DNA from: Nitrospirales bacterium
Lineage (GTDB): Bacteria > Nitrospirota > Nitrospiria > Nitrospirales > UBA8639
Reading direction: 5' to 3'
Length of the DNA stretch: 8,087 bases
NCBI GenBank assembly: GCA_021604265.1
Contig: BQIY01000077.1
Coordinates: 1-8,087, forward strand
The first letter of the stretch is position 1; every line of letters starts with the position of its first letter. Below the pieces are notes generated by a model, which saw only the letters and a list, made by a program, of their open reading frames with translations, made no database searches and was not told where the DNA came from. Below, in pieces: positions 3,001 to 8,087 of the stretch. The position numbers and the translations under genes were made by a program.

Positions 3001-3008
3001 TCAATCAT
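1..3008 (-). CDS. cusA: CusA-type Cu(I)/Ag(I) efflux RND pump, 3' end cut off
   Basis: Inner-membrane proton-driven pump of the heavy-metal-efflux RND family, which drives Cu(I)/Ag(I) through an adaptor and outer-membrane channel. The visible part is 1002 residues and starts MIERIIGWSARNGF, with a membrane segment at about 12-30. E. coli CusA has 1047 residues, so roughly 45 are missing beyond base 1. Seen: the proton-relay aspartate in AMVDAVIVMVENA (D405), E934 in GVAAETGVIM and K977 in RVRPKIM. The three methionines of the CusA metal path are also present: M568 (LYMPTSLPG), M618 (APLNMTETL) and M667 (TEMLATGI), each five below the E. coli numbers 573, 623 and 672. These support monovalent Cu/Ag rather than Zn/Co/Cd as substrate. 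All these landmarks fall in one frame, so there is no net frameshift. The start overlaps the cusB stop by 8 bases, indicating translational coupling. Confidence 0.96.
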   Translation of the reverse strand, partial: MIERIIGWSARNGFLVSLLVFFLMGWGIWVVARTPVDALPDLSDVQVIVFTEWPGRSPDLIEDQITYPLITSLLGAPQVKYVRGQSFLGLSFVYIVFQDGTDMYWARSRVVEYLQGVTDKLPEGVSPTLGPDATGVGWVFQYALVDETGQHNLADLRSFQDWYLRYWLQSVRGVAEVASIGGFVKQYQVQVDPVKLQTYGMSMSEVIQAIRRSNNEVGGRVIEASEREYMVRGRGYIRSLEDIQTIALGTDQHGTPIVVRDVARVTIGPDLRRGIAELDGRGEVVGGIVIMRYGENALAVIDRVKQKLQDIEPSIPEGIQVVPVYDRSDLILRAIATLKEKLIEISIVVSLVSVVFLFHLRSALVPILLLPVAILLSFIAMYYLGITSNVMSLSGIAIAIGAMVDAVIVMVENAHRRLEEWESQGRKGSREEIIIRAAQEVGKPLFFSLLIIMVSFLPIFTLEAQEGRLFKPLAYTKTFAMFFAALVSITVAPLLMRWFIRGRITSERRNPLNRFLLWLYSPLVKGVLRLRWLVVGLAVGGMILVLPLYEKLGSEFMPPLNEGTMLYMPTSLPGLSVQKASQILQTQDRLLKEFPEVDRVMGKMGRARTATDPAPLNMTETLITLKPQSEWRPGMTWDKLVAEMDQRVKFPGMPNIWWMPIQTRTEMLATGIRSSLGIKILGPQLEELERLGIQIEDLLQILEGTRSAYAERVTGGYYLDIDVNRKAITRYGLTVADVQEVIESAIGGKNITWTVEGRERYPINVRYPRELRQDIEAIKRVLVTTPQGEHIPLAQLSSISKTTGPPSIRDENGSLASFVFVDVAGQDLGTYVQKAKRLVQEKVKLPSGYSLQWAGQYQYLERAQQQLQIVIPLTLFLIFVLLYLNFRSIPRCLLVLLSVPFSMVGAIWYLHYLGYHLSVAVWVGLIALAGVAAETGVIMIMFLDEACAKRQKENQLQSLSDLRDAVVEGAVLRVRPKIMTASAIFLGLLPIMWSHGTGADVM

Positions 3009-4353
3009 GAGCCGGCTTCCCCCTGTCCTTTTTCATATCTATCTTCATATTCATTCCACTCATCTCCATGTTTCCCTTGTCCATCTCACCCATTTGTGCC
3101 TGTTCCATTTTGACGCCGCCCATTCCCAGGGCTCCCATCATGTTACTCGTGGCCATGAGACGACTTTCGGAATCCAATAAAAAAGTGCCAGAGGTGACAA
3201 TGCGTTCCCCTTCCTCCAATCCCTGATTCACCTCAAAAAATGAACCGACCTTGGGTCCGAGCGTAATTTTCCTCGGCTCAAATCTGTCACCCTCCTGTGC
3301 AACAAACACCACGTGTCGGCGTCCCGAGTCGAGCACAGCCTGGTCCGGGATGACGAGGCTTGTCCCACGATTCACTTGGATCAGCACCGTGCCATACATG
3401 TCAGGTTTCAACCGAACCTGAGGATTAGAGAATTCCAGGCGTAGCTGTACGGTGCGTGACTTTTTTTGCAGATAGGGGTAGATATAGGTCACACGTCCAG
3501 AAAATGTTTCCCCAGGGAATGCCTCCAGCGTAAACATCGCTGATTGCCCCACCTGAATAAACGGCAATTCATATTCATAGACGTCAGCTAGCACCCAAAT
3601 CGTCGAAAGATTGGCAATGGTGTACATTGTCATGTCAGGTCGGACAAACATGCCCTGAAACGCCGTCTTATCAATGATATGGCCGCTGATGGGAGAAAAG
3701 ATGGTGACCGAGTGGTTGGGTCTTCCTTGAAACTCCAATTCATCAATCTGGTCATCGGTAAACGTCCACAGGCGTAACCGATCTCTGGCCGCCTCAATGA
3801 CTTGTTGGGCTTGCTGGTGCACATCAGGGAGTGGACTGGCTTGGACATCTTCTAAGCCTTGTAAAGACAGCAGATATTCTTCCTGTGTGGCGACTAACTC
3901 AGGGCTGTACAGCGTAAAAAGGGGCTGCCCTTTGCGAACCGGCTTGCCGGTGAAATCCACGTAGAGGTCTTCGATCCAACCGGAAATCCGAAGGTTGACA
4001 TGAGCAATGCGCTGTTCGTTGTAGGTCACACGCCCGGTGGCTCGAACGGTTGTAGAAAGCCGCCGTTTCTCCACCAATGCGGTTTGTACGCCAATCATTT
4101 GTTGTTTGAGCGAGGACACGATCGGTGAGGCTTGCCCCGATGGCATATCAATCTGATCTGGCGTGGTCTTGATTTCCATGCTTGCCATTTTCTTCATATT
4201 TTGCATGGTCAGATGAGAGCCCTCAGTTCCGGTGCCGCGTGGGTAAAGTTCGAGCTTTTCATTTACCCACCATCCACCACCAACAAGGGCAATAATCCCA
4301 ATAACTATGGCGATCCAACGGAATTGATTTCTAAAGCGTTGTGGTATCTTCAT
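3001..4353 (-). CDS. cusB: CusB-type periplasmic adaptor with methionine-rich ends
   Basis: Membrane-fusion protein linking the CusA pump to the outer-membrane channel; in the Cus family it also hands metal to the pump. It has 450 residues from the chosen start MKIPQRFRNQ. That start has a strong AAGGAAGG seven bases upstream; a longer reading from 4425 would intrude 59 bases into the gene before and lacks such support. Seen: one N-terminal membrane anchor (about 12-30), no lipobox, a barrel-sandwich/lipoyl half near 120-150 (ISGWIEDLYVDFTGKPVRKG), a helical hairpin at about 153-210, the second lipoyl half near 218-240 (SPISGHIIDKT), a beta-barrel (about 250-330) and a membrane-proximal domain (about 335-400). 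Methionines 50, 53, 56 and 59 recur every third residue after the anchor, and residues 399-450 hold 12 methionines. E. coli CusB binds Cu(I) through N-terminal methionines; metal binding by the C-terminal tail is inference. Divergent family members with Zn/Co/Cd specificity usually lack such Met enrichment. Confidence 0.93.
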   Translation of the reverse strand: MKIPQRFRNQFRWIAIVIGIIALVGGGWWVNEKLELYPRGTGTEGSHLTMQNMKKMASMEIKTTPDQIDMPSGQASPIVSSLKQQMIGVQTALVEKRRLSTTVRATGRVTYNEQRIAHVNLRISGWIEDLYVDFTGKPVRKGQPLFTLYSPELVATQEEYLLSLQGLEDVQASPLPDVHQQAQQVIEAARDRLRLWTFTDDQIDELEFQGRPNHSVTIFSPISGHIIDKTAFQGMFVRPDMTMYTIANLSTIWVLADVYEYELPFIQVGQSAMFTLEAFPGETFSGRVTYIYPYLQKKSRTVQLRLEFSNPQVRLKPDMYGTVLIQVNRGTSLVIPDQAVLDSGRRHVVFVAQEGDRFEPRKITLGPKVGSFFEVNQGLEEGERIVTSGTFLLDSESRLMATSNMMGALGMGGVKMEQAQMGEMDKGNMEMSGMNMKIDMKKDRGKPAHD

Positions 4354-4360
4354 GAGCAGA

Positions 4361-4368
4361 CCTTCCTT
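4361..4368 (-). promoter_or_regulatory. Ribosome binding site deciding the cusB start
   Basis: On the minus strand the sequence reads AAGGAAGG, seven bases before the ATG at 4353, and it overlaps the TAA stop of the outer-membrane factor gene (4367-4369). This favours the 450-residue CusB over the 24-residue longer reading and suggests that translation of the two genes is coupled. Confidence 0.75.
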
Positions 4369-5644
4369 ATGACACTTCCGTTCCAACAACTCGTTCCAGT
4401 TGTGCGAGCACCTGTTCCCAATCAACTAATGCTCTGACAAATTCCAACTGATAGGTCAGCAATGCACGATCAGCTTCTATTAAGTCCAAAAAGTCGTTGC
4501 GATCCGTGCGATACCCGGCAATAGCTGCCTTTAACGTAAGTTTGGCCTGAGGCAGAACAGTGGTCTTATACAAGTTCAGAATTTTTCTCTTCGCTGCTAT
4601 CCGAGCCAGGAGGTCTTGAATTTGAAACCGCGTCTGGTTTTCCAACGTCCGTTTTTTAAACCGTGCAGCTTCTCGCTGCGCCATGGCTTCTCGAACGCCT
4701 GCCTCATATTTGGGCTTTGTCCAAAAGGCAAAGGGCAGGTTGATAGATATCACCCCACCAAACCCATCTTCTGTATTGCGGTTAAGCCAACGTTGAGCTT
4801 CAACCCGTAGGTGGGGATAGGTTTGGAGTTCGGCCAGTTTAATAATGGAATCATATTGCTCCACTGCAAACGCAGCTTCGAGAATTTCTGGTCGCTGCTG
4901 AAGGGCTTGGTTCTGGAGATGCTCTACTGAAAGAACCTGTGCCTTTATCACAGGTTCCATAGGTATCCCCAACGAGGCCTGAGTTTCACGATTTAAAATC
5001 GTATTGAGATTGGCATGAGCGGTCTGCTTTTGCTGTTTCAGAATAGGAAGGTGTTGAAACCACTTCGCCTGCTCGACTTGGGCTTTCAGGACATCCACTT
5101 GGGTCCCTTTCCCAACACGGAATTTCGCCTTCGCTGCATTAAAAAATTGTTTGAGACGTTGGGCTTCCTGATGATGAATCTCTATAGCTTGGTGGACATA
5201 AAACAATTCATAGTAGGCCATCTTCACCGTCTCGATGATTTCCCGTTTCTTCCCTGCCAAGCTTTGTTCAGCCTGTTTCACCACCTTTTCCGCAAGGTGC
5301 TCTTGCTCAGATAAGGTTCCTGGATAGGGAAATTGTTGGGAAAGTCCAAAGATGGTCCGATCCGAACGTGTCACATCCAACGAGTTAGGTGTGTTCCACA
5401 GTCGGACAGTCAATTCGGGGTCATCTAAGGCGTTGCTTTGGGGAATCCGCTCCTGCATAGCTTTTACCCTGGCTTGTTCTGCTACCAATTCCGGATTGTT
5501 TTCAAGGGCTTCTTGAACAAGCAGGCCAAGTCGTATGGTTTTTTGGGTTTCGGTCTGATCTCCCGCAAGGATAGGCCAGGGCAAACCAAACCACGCAATG
5601 CTGACCAGTAAGCATGTCCAACACAATCTCCGTAAGGATTTCAT
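4367..5644 (-). CDS. TolC-family outer-membrane efflux channel (CusC-like)
   Basis: Outer-membrane factor expected to form the trimeric exit duct of the CusCBA pump. It has 425 residues from MKSLRRLCWT, a basic n-region followed by a hydrophobic core and a likely signal-peptidase I site near residue 28 (PILA|GDQ). There is no lipobox cysteine, unlike E. coli CusC, which is lipidated. Two outer-efflux-protein repeats are visible: residues about 40-220 (with NNPELVAEQA, QQFPYPGTL and FRVGKGTQVDVLKAQVE) and about 245-420 (with YPHLRVEAQRW, INLPFAFWTKP and TDRNDFLDLIEADRALL). Long glutamine- and alanine-rich helices fit the periplasmic barrel. An alternative ATG four codons upstream (5656) has AGGTGG six bases before it; the chosen one has GGAG six bases before it. 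Placement directly before cusBA gives the CusC role, but sequence alone cannot separate CusC from CzcC. Confidence 0.88.
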   Translation of the reverse strand: MKSLRRLCWTCLLVSIAWFGLPWPILAGDQTETQKTIRLGLLVQEALENNPELVAEQARVKAMQERIPQSNALDDPELTVRLWNTPNSLDVTRSDRTIFGLSQQFPYPGTLSEQEHLAEKVVKQAEQSLAGKKREIIETVKMAYYELFYVHQAIEIHHQEAQRLKQFFNAAKAKFRVGKGTQVDVLKAQVEQAKWFQHLPILKQQKQTAHANLNTILNRETQASLGIPMEPVIKAQVLSVEHLQNQALQQRPEILEAAFAVEQYDSIIKLAELQTYPHLRVEAQRWLNRNTEDGFGGVISINLPFAFWTKPKYEAGVREAMAQREAARFKKRTLENQTRFQIQDLLARIAAKRKILNLYKTTVLPQAKLTLKAAIAGYRTDRNDFLDLIEADRALLTYQLEFVRALVDWEQVLAQLERVVGTEVS

Positions 5645-5674
5645 ATGGTTCTCCATTCCGAACCACCTGGCCCC

Positions 5675-5798: not shown

Positions 5799-6158
5799 TC
5801 AAATACGAAAAACGGAAATGAGAACAAGGGTATCCTTCGGAGGTACGGATTGCCCTTGGGCCACTATGGGGGGTAATGGATTTGTTGCGACTTCGATCGA
5901 TGTGAGAGAAGGCACATTCCCATCTAAGAGGATAAAAGAACTCCATTCAGAGGGAATATCGAAATTAGCTTGGATTGCGAGAGATTTAAACCCATCACAA
6001 AATTGCAAGGCGGGTTCTTCCCCAGGTTTCGTGCAATCACTGTCCTGGCTGACTTGCATGCCGCCATAAATCGGCACCACACATGCATAGGCATTGAAAC
6101 TAAACAAAAGGAAAAGGATTATAAGGAGAAGGGCCAAGTATTTTGGGAAGGTTCGCAT
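5799..6158 (-). CDS. Small exported cysteine-containing protein, unknown function
   Basis: A 119-residue protein of no family I can name. Residues 1-25 form a clear signal peptide (MRTFPKYLAL, then a run of leucine, isoleucine and phenylalanine) ending AYA just before C26. Signal peptidase I cleavage there would leave cysteine as the first mature residue; the -3 residue is alanine, so a lipoprotein site is possible but poor. The mature part is about 94 residues with C26, C42 and C54, an acidic stretch (QDSDCTKPGEEP), then FCDGFKSLAIQANFDIP, and a proline-rich, beta-like C-terminus. No histidine occurs in the protein and the only mature methionine is M34, so a CopC- or CusF-type copper site is not evident. 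It sits between the cupredoxin and the pump genes on the same strand, suggesting a periplasmic accessory role in metal handling (inference). No Shine-Dalgarno is visible; see the promoter just upstream. Confidence 0.75.
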   Translation of the reverse strand: MRTFPKYLALLLIILFLLFSFNAYACVVPIYGGMQVSQDSDCTKPGEEPALQFCDGFKSLAIQANFDIPSEWSSFILLDGNVPSLTSIEVATNPLPPIVAQGQSVPPKDTLVLISVFRI

Positions 6159-6286: not shown

Positions 6287-6646
6287 TTATTTTGTTCCCT
6301 TAAGCACAGTGATCGTTCCTCGCATGATAAGGTGCAAACGGCAGTAATAAGGATAGGTTCCTGGTTGAAGAGAAGAAAGAATAAAACTTTTCCCAGGAAC
6401 GACTGGGCCTGAATCAAACAGGCAGGTTTTTTGAGTTGAACAATCATCGTGAGTTACAGTGTGGACCGTGGCCATTTTGTTATCCCACTGAACTGGTGAT
6501 CCAGAAGGAATGCTTGTCAATACAGGGGAATAATACGGGGCCGGTTGTTCCATGGTGATGTGATAGGGGCTCGGTCCTTCTACTAACCCAGTCGTCCTGA
6601 AAAGAACGATTCCGCACAAAACCACGACCGTTGAACTCAATTGCAT
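6287..6646 (-). CDS. Small exported cupredoxin (type 1 copper protein)
   Basis: A 119-residue single-domain cupredoxin of the plastocyanin/amicyanin type, predicted periplasmic. The type 1 copper ligands are all visible: H62 in ATVHTVTHDD, then C102, H105 and M108 in YYCRLHLIM. The C-x2-H-x2-M loop has the short amicyanin spacing rather than the longer plastocyanin one. The N-terminus (MQLSSTVVVLCGIVLF) is hydrophobic but has no positive charge before the core, so it may be an atypical signal peptide or an anchor. C69 and C75 lie close enough for a disulfide. The ATG has a very strong AGGAGGG five bases upstream, and an in-frame stop lies 13 codons further up, so the start is well fixed. It follows the GDCCVxC gene after 47 bases on the same strand. 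Likely role: copper binding or electron transfer in the periplasm (inference). Confidence 0.9.
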   Translation of the reverse strand: MQLSSTVVVLCGIVLFRTTGLVEGPSPYHITMEQPAPYYSPVLTSIPSGSPVQWDNKMATVHTVTHDDCSTQKTCLFDSGPVVPGKSFILSSLQPGTYPYYCRLHLIMRGTITVLKGTK

Positions 6647-6693: not shown

Positions 6694-6909
6694 TCAGCTT
6701 GGTGCCTGCTGAATGGGTGGGCATGGCACATCCCCATACGAACAGAACACGCAACAATCCCCGTCTTTCGGGCGAAGGCTCGTTTGGCAGTTTTGGCAGT
6801 CATACGCTACCCGGCAAGAATCCGTGGGCATGGTTTCGGTTTTTTTAAATCCACACTTGGGACAGGTAATGGTTGACTCCAGGAAAAGGTTACTTGTGTC
6901 AGTCATCAT
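6694..6909 (-). CDS. GDCCVxC-domain small cysteine-rich protein
   Basis: A 71-residue cytoplasmic-looking protein with nine cysteines: 16, 19, 32, 38, 41, 52, 53, 56 and 63. An N-terminal TCPKCGF knuckle pairs with CQNC at 38-41 as a probable zinc-ribbon-like metal site. The C-terminal GDCCVFCSYGDVPCPP is the signature of the GDCCVxC domain family, some members of which are selenoproteins. Here every position is an ordinary cysteine codon, so this is the non-seleno form. The start overlaps the end of the merP-like gene by 11 bases; AGGAGGA lies eight bases before the first of two tandem ATGs, favouring the first. The function of the family is not firmly known; its place among mer genes suggests thiol-based binding of a soft metal in the cytoplasm (inference). 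Confidence 0.88.
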   Translation of the reverse strand: MMTDTSNLFLESTITCPKCGFKKTETMPTDSCRVAYDCQNCQTSLRPKDGDCCVFCSYGDVPCPPIQQAPS

Positions 6910-7126
6910 CAGATTGCTCCTCCTGCGTCAGAGTCGAGGGAAATCCTGCGTTCGTTGTGAGCGCGATCAACGTGTGTACGTGGACTTCTCTCTCATCGAA
7001 TGTCACGATCGCATTTTCTAGTTCAAGAGACACTGTTGCCTCATGAACGCCATCGACATCCTGCAATACTTTTCTTACGGTTATGGGGCACAGAGAACAG
7101 GTCATGTTTTCGACAGAGAGGGTCAC
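6899..7126 (-). CDS. merP: MerP-like heavy-metal-associated (HMA) domain, downstream part after in-frame stop
   Basis: A 75-residue HMA domain read from a GTG start. It carries the metal-binding loop NMTCSLCPITVRK with C10 and C13 (the M-x-C-x2-C motif), followed by VDGVHEATVSLELENAIVTFDE, closely matching the ferredoxin-like fold of MerP, the periplasmic Hg(II)-binding protein that passes metal to MerT. The domain is complete, with an acidic tail (EEQSDDD). Oddity: the same reading frame continues upstream through three codons to a TAA, and beyond that to a full signal peptide starting at 7204. The gene therefore looks like a merP of about 100 codons broken by one nonsense codon. The GTG has no good ribosome binding site, but it lies nine bases after the TAA, so re-initiation is conceivable and would make a cytoplasmic metal chaperone instead of a periplasmic one. 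A sequencing error is the other possibility. Confidence 0.8.
   Translation of the reverse strand: MTLSVENMTCSLCPITVRKVLQDVDGVHEATVSLELENAIVTFDEREVHVHTLIALTTNAGFPSTLTQEEQSDDD
6918..6924 (-). promoter_or_regulatory. Ribosome binding site of the GDCCVxC gene
   Basis: AGGAGGA on the minus strand lies inside the last codons of the merP-like gene, eight bases before the first ATG (6909) and eleven before the second (6906). It supports the first start and independent initiation even if translation of the gene before is lost. Confidence 0.6.
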
Positions 7127-7135
7127 GACTTTTCT

Positions 7136-7204
7136 TTATGCAACAGCAGTAGTTCCCATTGTAAGCAGGACAAAAACCATGATACTGACGAAGAATGTTT
7201 TCAT
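7136..7204 (-). pseudogene. merP: Signal-peptide stub of merP, ended by TAA
   Basis: A 22-codon reading starting MKTFFVSIMVFVLL and ending with TTAVA followed by TAA (7138-7136). It is a textbook signal peptide with a lysine, a hydrophobic core and an A-x-A-type end, and the stop stands precisely where the mature MerP should begin. The ATG is preceded by GAGGAA at good spacing, and begins ten bases after the merT stop, exactly where merP sits in mer operons. The downstream HMA domain is in the same frame, so a single base change (for example from CAA, GAA or AAA) would explain it. Confidence 0.8.
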
Positions 7205-7214
7205 TGGTTTTTCC

Positions 7215-7562
7215 TCACAGTAACAATAGGCCAAATAATTCAACACCCAATGTACTCAGAATAAGAAGTGTGGCTATCCAAAGAGTCCCTTTCAACATTT
7301 GTTCTGACTGATGTGTGCTGCATGCCGCTCCTTCTTCACAGGACGTTTCAGGCTTGCCGTAGATCTTCCAAAATCCGATTCCTAGAAACACCAGGCTTTC
7401 CACAAGAAAAAAGGGTTGATACGGCGCAAGGGCTGTTACATAAGAAATCCATGCGCCACTGATGCCCAAAAGAAGCAAAGCAAAAGGCACGATGCAGCAT
7501 GTGGATGCCAGGACCGCTCCAATTAATCCTCCGGCAGCAAAAACGACTTTTCCCTTTATCAT
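7215..7562 (-). CDS. merT: MerT mercuric-ion transport protein
   Basis: Inner-membrane protein that in mer operons takes Hg(II) from MerP and brings it into the cytoplasm. It has 115 residues, usual MerT length, with three predicted membrane helices at about 7-33, 46-67 and 92-114. The vicinal cysteine pair C22-C23 sits in helix 1 within STCCIVPFALLLLGISGAW, the MerT signature. The second pair, C75 and C81, is in the cytoplasmic loop (CEEGAACST); these match the MerT positions usually numbered 24/25 and 76/82 with a shift of one. AAGGAG lies nine bases before the ATG. It is the first gene after the divergent operator and is followed after ten bases by the merP signal peptide. No mercuric reductase is seen in the window, so the fate of imported metal is open. 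Confidence 0.92.
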   Translation of the reverse strand: MIKGKVVFAAGGLIGAVLASTCCIVPFALLLLGISGAWISYVTALAPYQPFFLVESLVFLGIGFWKIYGKPETSCEEGAACSTHQSEQMLKGTLWIATLLILSTLGVELFGLLLL

Positions 7563-7578: not shown

Positions 7579-7609
7579 ATGGTACAACCTGTAGTAACTA
7601 CAGATACAA
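7579..7609 (-). promoter_or_regulatory. MerR-type promoter of merT with 19-base spacer
   Basis: On the minus strand TTGTAT (7609-7604) and TACCAT (7584-7579) are separated by 19 bases rather than 17. This overlong spacer is the mark of promoters that MerR-family activators switch on by untwisting the DNA. The palindrome described at 7589-7603 fills most of the spacer. The -10 falls just ahead of the merT ribosome binding site, leaving a short leader. The merR promoter must also lie in this 74-base gap on the other strand; I could not place it with confidence. Confidence 0.75.
7589..7603. promoter_or_regulatory. Operator palindrome for the MerR-family regulator
   Basis: CTGTAGT-A-ACTACAG is a perfect palindrome with seven-base arms around one central base, lying between the divergent merT and merR genes and within the merT promoter spacer. 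The arm sequence differs from the GTAC-centred arms of Tn501/Tn21 mer operators and from the CCTTCC/GGAAGG arms of CueR sites, so it is its own variant. Confidence 0.75.
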
Positions 7610-7636: not shown

Positions 7637-8032
7637 ATGTTAATAGGAACACTTTCACTGCGAACCGGGTGCCAGATTGAAACGATTCGGTATTACGAGC
7701 GTATAGGGTTGCTCCCCAAACCCCTGAGAACGGAAGGGGGGCACAGGATCTATACTAAAGAGCAAATGAAACGATTGGTCTTTATTCGGAGAAGTCGGGA
7801 ATTGGGGTTTTCCCTTGACGAAATTCGTACTCTGCTACGTCTGGTTGACGGCAAGCGGTATACGTGTCAGCAAGTCAAAACTATCATGGAGAAACACCTG
7901 GGAGATATTAAAAAGAAAATTTTCGATTTACGGCGTCTTCAAAAAGCTCTCGGGGATATTTCTGCCCGATGCGAAGGGACCCAGGTCCCAGAGTGCCCGA
8001 TTATTGATGTGTTATTTGAGGAGAGAAAGTAA
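7637..8032 (+). CDS. merR: MerR-family metal-responsive transcriptional regulator
   Basis: A 131-residue dimeric activator/repressor of the MerR family. Residues 2-26 form the winged helix-turn-helix (IGTLSLRTGCQIETIRYYERIGLLP), the wing follows with EGGHRIY, the second helical pair is at about 41-66 (RELGFSLDEIRTLL), and the dimer helix spans about 77-108. The metal site has C77, C112 and C120 (CEGTQVPECPII). C77 and C112 are 35 apart, as in mercury MerR (82 and 117). The C112-x7-C120 loop, however, has the length and numbering of the copper sensor CueR, which has serine at 77. It is transcribed away from merT across a shared operator. No strong Shine-Dalgarno precedes the ATG. The metal specificity, Hg(II) versus Cu(I)/Ag(I), cannot be settled from sequence; neighbours merT and merP favour mercury. 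Confidence 0.9.
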   Translation: MLIGTLSLRTGCQIETIRYYERIGLLPKPLRTEGGHRIYTKEQMKRLVFIRRSRELGFSLDEIRTLLRLVDGKRYTCQQVKTIMEKHLGDIKKKIFDLRRLQKALGDISARCEGTQVPECPIIDVLFEERK

Positions 8033-8087
8033 TGAATGCTGTGATTGTCTATATTAGTGCGGCAGTTGCTGAAATCGGAGGCTGTTT
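8032..8087 (+). CDS. YnfA-family small membrane protein, 5' fragment
   Basis: Eighteen complete codons are visible before the right edge: MNAVIVYISAAVAEIGGC. The hydrophobic first helix ending AEIGGC is the hallmark of the YnfA (UPF0060) family, four-helix inner-membrane proteins resembling small multidrug resistance exporters. The ATG shares its A with the TAA stop of merR, so the two are translationally coupled. Identification rests on a short stretch; the remaining roughly 90 residues are outside the window. Confidence 0.7.
   Translation, partial: MNAVIVYISAAVAEIGGC

Follow-up and report, generated by a model that had tools for sequence, protein, structure and literature searches.

The window analysed here, a Nitrospirales metagenome contig taken apparently over its whole length of 8087 nt, carries a merP-like gene with an in-frame TAA between its signal peptide and its metal-binding domain. 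The stop probably arose by a recent nonsense substitution; the gene would otherwise be a normal member of the Nitrospirales merR/merT-merP-GDCCVxC cluster, coding for an exported MerP-like protein. The stop itself, the intact frames on the contig, the stop-free relatives and the past purifying selection on the domain are direct observations, and this reading is built on them. Translation would begin at the merP ATG and end at the TAA once the 22-residue signal peptide has been made, so that the periplasmic metal carrier would be lost or nearly so. MerT and the GDCCVxC protein would still be made, each from its own start site, and a small amount of cytoplasmic HMA domain might arise by restart at a downstream GTG, as an accident rather than an adaptation.

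On the minus strand, positions 7204-6890 translate to MKTFFVSIMVFVLLTMGTTAVA*RKVVTLSVENMTCSLCPITVRKVLQ...SDDD*, and the first stop in the merP-like frame is the TAA at 7138-7136. The open frame that follows the residues RKV is VTLSVENMTCSLCPITV...SDDD, running to a TGA that ends at 6899. The original prediction had described a signal peptide at 7204-7139 ending in AVA, then the TAA, three codons and a GTG-started HMA domain; translation reproduces this arrangement, coordinates and wording alike (Table 1). It had also taken normal MerP to be a single exported protein, which holds in the relatives that we read in protein and DNA alignments. The signal peptide of the window aligns with the N-termini of the related proteins P0002-P0005, P0007 and P0008. 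Its spacing from the HMA domain is the same as in two Nitrospirales genomes, represented by the loci L093 (genome G029, Candidatus Nitronereus thalassa) and L094 (Nitrospirales bacterium NPIRA01), which indicates that the lesion is a substitution and not an insertion or deletion.

Table 1. Features of the 8087-nt window, with strand and the basis on which each was assigned
Feature	Coordinates	Strand	Basis
CusA-like RND pump, open to contig edge	3..3008	-	Pfam
CusB-like adaptor, intact	3001..4353	-	Pfam and relatives
CusC/TolC-like outer membrane efflux protein, intact	4367..5656	-	Pfam and relatives
119-aa open frame	5799..6158	-	matches L093 (57%), L096 (61%), L094 (29%)
Cupredoxin-like protein, intact	6287..6646	-	PF13473, 29.9 bits against 27
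GDCCVxC-domain protein, intact, start overlapping the HMA 3' end	6694..6909	-	NF041374, 102.9 bits against 40
HMA domain, 75 aa, open from GTG, CxxC intact	6899..7126	-	Pfam and solved-chain alignment
Three sense codons (RKV) from TAA to GTG	7127..7135	-	translation
In-frame TAA, first mature codon of the merP-like gene	7136..7138	-	translation
merP-like signal peptide, 22 codons, ending AVA	7139..7204	-	translation; judged by eye
merT-like membrane transporter, intact	7215..7562	-	Pfam MerT, 92.5 bits against 32.9
Putative MerR-type operator-promoter; inverted repeat CTGTAGTTACTACAG flanked by two hexamers with 19-nt spacing	7579..7609	-	by eye
MerR-family regulator, divergent, intact	7637..8032	+	family models

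The GTG-started piece covers positions 1-61/62 of the Pfam HMA model PF00403 (50.6 bits against a cut-off of 24.8). Its 75 residues align to residues 5-72 of the solved 72-residue MerP chains 1osd and 1afi, and both metal-site positions are cysteines (MTCSLC). Structure prediction of the 75-aa product was of low confidence (mean pLDDT 56.9, with seven sequences), and no conclusion was drawn from it; RNA folding around the junction of signal peptide and HMA domain was unremarkable (z -1.44). Against the NCBIfam MerP equivalog TIGR02052 the open piece alone scores 74.8 bits over model positions 26-92, below the cut-off of 92.55; five intact relatives score 90.8, 89.9, 97.1, 104.5 and 70.4 bits, so that two of the five reach it. 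The MerT equivalog gives 85.5 bits (cut-off 150), and the regulator scores 128.4 bits with MerR (cut-off 150.85), 122.6 with CadR-PbrR and 121 with CueR, in each case below the cut-off. With all three equivalog scores (MerP, MerT, MerR) short of their cut-offs, it is safest to call the system 'mer-like'.

The window shares with known MerP systems (TIGR02052; 1afi, 1osd) an HMA domain with the MTCxxC motif, a signal peptide upstream in the same frame, an adjoining merT and a divergent merR, and the gene appears to lie in an operon with merT under the MerR-type regulator. It differs from them in the stop that splits the signal peptide from the domain, where MerP is a single exported protein, and in that no merA-like frame was seen among the named frames of the contig. 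The Nitrospirales orthologues are closer models: P0004 (Candidatus Nitronereus thalassa) is the merP sequence of L093 and P0005 (Nitrospirales bacterium) that of L094. They have the same gene order, merR/merT-merP-GDCCVxC-cupredoxin, and a MerR-type operator as in the window, and their HMA domains are 65-68% identical to that of the window; unlike the window gene, however, each of these merP genes is a single open frame. A nonsense allele or pseudogene is defined by a disabling lesion where relatives have an intact gene, and the window shows this combination. The signal peptide and the ribosome sites are nevertheless intact, and a second lesion that would mark the gene as a pseudogene is absent, which counts against the recent-nonsense reading.

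The merT stop codon, TGA at 7217-7215, sits just 5' of the merP ATG. In L093 and L094 the same five genes (merR, merT, merP, GDCCVxC and cupredoxin) lie in synteny with the window, and the GDCCVxC gene adjoins merTP there as well; a search for GDCCVxC in the available literature collection gave no paper. We take the segment between merT and merR to be a MerR-type operator-promoter from the anatomy of MerR promoters. L094 has the same inverted repeat, and L093 has it with one central base changed. A sigma-70 scan, which admits spacings of 16-18 nt only, missed this putative promoter. No Rfam family or tRNA gene was found in scans of the window, and no Pfam family was assigned to the 119-aa frame. 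Of the 11 records returned by a plasmid search none matched more than 8% of the queried stretch, and searches of phages and viral contigs gave no match. At the end of the window (8032-8087) a further frame, MNAVIVYISAAVAEIGGC, opens at the merR stop codon and is cut off by the contig edge; it presumably resembles the beginning of a small membrane protein of the YnfA type. In L093 no comparable frame of 60 aa or more is listed directly after merR.

The column occupied by the stop holds E, K or Q in all eight nearest protein relatives (P0002-P0009, found with the HMA piece as query), and a stop in this column occurs in none of 65 relative DNA rows. These rows comprise 51 of 52 genome-contig loci, 13 stretches of order relatives and L093, with near-duplicates included; for loci outside Nitrospirales the column was set by a fixed offset and is hence less exact. 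Judged by eye, the frame is open back to a hydrophobic N-terminus in 63 of the 65 rows, the exceptions being L037 and the decayed L113. In the protein collection the nearest HMA protein besides the window's own P0001 is P0002 (78% identical) and the nearest MerT besides its own is P0011 (72%); of 48 family genomes searched, G029 gives the closest DNA match (73%). The TAA allele is carried by one contig only (P0001 has one member on one contig). Within the collections compared, the stop is private to this contig.

Among the relatives themselves, L113 (G174:C1:2350506-2350706), the third merP-like match of genome G174, is a decayed copy with no recognisable signal peptide and with its second metal cysteine lost (CELF); the two other copies of G174 have signal-peptide-like N-termini. 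L037 has no clear signal peptide. In P0009, encoded on a 745-nt contig, the first cysteine of the CxxC motif is replaced by F (MTFSLC). In-frame stops in matches of other genomes of the order (TAG in three, TGA in two) were considered as possible recurrent recoding, but the DNA shows them to be natural gene ends.

A private stop could also come from a base error in the sequencing or assembly of a single metagenome contig, the gene then being an ordinary merP. We consider this unlikely, though it must be taken seriously. The allele stands on one contig, and a same-species sequence, sought among the proteins and family genomes, was not found in the collections searched. A substitution error would give an identical picture and fits the sequence equally well, which weighs against a recent nonsense mutation as the explanation. 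However, the contig is not generally noisy, as its seven other genes and the 119-aa frame show no further stop or frameshift, and consensus substitution errors in contigs are rare. The original prediction had offered 'recent' or 'artefact' as readings of the stop, and both fit the data. It had also called the position of the stop striking. This impression weakens on inspection of the orthologues: 31 of 106 codons in the L093 merP and 34 of 101 in the L094 merP can be turned into a stop by a single base change, and in both genes these include codon 23, the site of the stop. A nonsense change on exactly this codon has a prior of ~3%, but it is judged post hoc and other sites near the cleavage site would have been equally eye-catching, so that the position is weak evidence.

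The HMA domain has been under purifying selection. Over 75 codons, the window and L093, its nearest DNA relative, show 17 differences at first, 12 at second and 46 at third codon positions. This corresponds to pN 0.203 and pS 0.755 (pN/pS ~0.27, with dS saturated). The comparison of L093 with L094, in both of which merP is intact, gives a similar value (pN 0.189, pS 0.693). With L094 as outgroup, the amino acid changes on the window side and on the L093 side number 9 and 7 in the HMA domain, 18 and 11 in merT, 4 and 4 in the GDCCVxC gene, 10 and 8 in the cupredoxin gene and 8 and 5 in merR. The window side thus has more changes in four of the five genes, but these lineage counts are only indicative because L094 may not be an outgroup: the protein tree joins P0004 with P0005, albeit with weak support (53). 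In the same tree the terminal branch of the window protein is somewhat longer than that of P0002 (0.21 against 0.13, in a range of 0.06-0.67 for the set), a point against the recent-nonsense reading. Compared with P0003-P0009, the window domain has a mean identity of 0.638 and P0002 one of 0.666.

The conserved columns of the domain tell of the same constraint. The window departs at one of the 25 columns that are invariant in eight relatives, by a conservative change of V to I, and at two of the 28 or 29 columns that are invariant when seven or six relatives are used. Under random substitution, the chance that the HMA domain stays as intact as this is P 0.022-0.054 after 20 neutral changes per 225 nt, across three choices of relatives, and P <=0.005 after 30. 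The few departures at invariant columns, set against random substitution, indicate that the domain was constrained over most of its separate history. The pN/pS, branch and invariant-column comparisons together bear out the earlier statement that the HMA domain shows no further decay, and the purifying selection that the prediction proposed to look for in close relatives is found in the comparison with L093. A constrained domain implies that the stop is recent, or that it is false, or that the domain is still made. Purifying selection along the branch cannot separate a recent stop from continued translation. The case also carries a caution, in that a recent or false stop looks just like an intact domain after a stop.

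Continued translation could take the form of a functional split, in which restart at the GTG at 7126 yields a selected cytoplasmic HMA metal chaperone alongside a free signal peptide. We regard this as improbable. The GTG lies in frame 9 nt past the TAA, a start there would yield the HMA domain in full, and the short distance between stop and start would allow termination-reinitiation. Termination-reinitiation across short distances is well documented; in a study on Haloferax, exchange of the Shine-Dalgarno motif cut reinitiation by ~20-80% in six of seven gene pairs and raised it in one, so that loss of the motif did not abolish it (PMC6728339). Since reinitiation works over short distances even without such a motif, a weak accidental restart at the GTG is plausible in the window as well, and it is as an accidental, low-level event that we would expect it.

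The sequence around the GTG bears little mark of a start. With a generic 16S tail, the computed ribosome-site duplex at the GTG has -1.0 kcal/mol, a value equalled or bettered by 79% of 460 start-like triplets on the same strand, against -5.6 for the merP ATG, -8.8 for merT and -10.3 kcal/mol for the GDCCVxC gene. This poor site speaks against a functional split, but it does not exclude a start at the GTG, because merR (-2.0 kcal/mol) and the 119-aa frame (+0.2 kcal/mol) have similarly weak sites. The restart column is mostly Val in relatives and is GTG in 11 of the 65 rows, all of them without a preceding stop. Consequently, nothing indicates that the GTG arose as a start, and it need not be a new one. 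The weak ribosome site and these stop-free GTG rows leave the suggestion that the cytoplasmic form is useful, and tolerated for that reason, without support.

Relatives that begin at the same junction bear on the functional split too. A profile search of the protein collection gave 303 relatives, 120 of which were listed; leaving aside the window's own P0001, at least five of the 119 matches listed are called as starting at the junction (17 residues or fewer before the first cysteine). They are P0006 (on a 461-nt contig), P0121 (on an 8997-nt contig), P0124 (two members on five contigs), P0136 (on six contigs) and P0137, which begins with V and is perhaps at a contig edge. P0113 and P0169, with 19 and 21 residues before the first cysteine, start slightly earlier than the junction. 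The contigs of P0121 and P0124 are equal in size to those of the MerT proteins P0037 and P0045, so that their merP genes are probably not at a contig edge. These relatives favour a functional split in so far as their starts are correctly called; the junction starts may be start-codon miscalls or real losses of the signal.

Cytoplasmic HMA genes of the CopZ-like kind do occur in the phylum, which also favours the split: eight of the 12 HMA loci fetched there are signal-less. We considered these short genes as candidates for signal-less merP and rejected them, as no match to merT turned up within the 4.2-5 kb read and they look CopZ-like, as if of another kind. The other four loci have merT nearby and a signal-peptide-like N-terminus. 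Moreover, of the loci at which merT was sought and found next to an HMA gene (L093-L096 and L134-L137), eight of eight have an HMA gene with a signal-peptide-like N-terminus by eye, which is a further argument against a selected cytoplasmic product. The GTG-started product of the window would, like the CopZ-type copper chaperones, be a stand-alone cytoplasmic HMA domain, but the piece scores only 44.5, 44.3 and 43.1 bits with CopZ models whose cut-offs are 91, 95 and 85 bits, respectively. Unlike CopZ genes, the window encodes an export signal directly upstream of the HMA domain, and unlike the CopZ-like genes seen in the phylum it has a merT beside it.

A broader proposal would be that this Nitrospirales merP subfamily sheds its export signal repeatedly at the cleavage site and that the junction-started HMA domain partners MerT from the cytoplasm. 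On this view the nonsense case would be the window, with P0006, P0121, P0124, P0136 and P0137 as other cases. We hold this to be highly improbable. If the related junction starts are real, they would trace one route from an exported metal carrier to a cytoplasmic chaperone.

Readthrough of the TAA, by a suppressor tRNA or by recoding, would restore a full-length MerP, and the intact downstream frame is the sole point in its favour. This explanation is scarcely credible. TAA also ends cusC, the cupredoxin gene and merR on the same contig, which indicates that the codon is not reassigned and that the contig uses the standard code. There is no tRNA gene within the window. The base after the TAA is A, whereas a C following the stop codon is known from leaky contexts. 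The stop is a TAA, unlike the TGA found at the metal site of a relative, L021. Two selenoprotein-related models, with related HMA domains, are the second and third best for the window piece: NF045683, a MerT/CopZ fusion selenoprotein (68.6 bits against a cut-off of 375), and NF041115, a UxxU metal-binding (seleno)protein (57.4 bits against 95). In contrast to these families, the metal site of the window is CxxC and carries no UGA, and the TAA lies away from it.

On present evidence the window would be a further example of a nonsense allele of recent origin, or of a base error, in an accessory gene for metal transport. MerP is reported to be dispensable for resistance in Tn21/Tn501. A MerP knock-out is proposed as follow-up in the available text of PMC4570782; neither that text nor the available text of PMC8153442 contains a direct test of MerP loss.

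The relative L021 mentioned above is a gammaproteobacterial MerP-like gene (5001-5192 of its locus, with the same letters in L030) in which TGA takes the place of the first metal-site codon (VENMT*NFC). In this it recalls the UxxU selenoprotein family NF041115.
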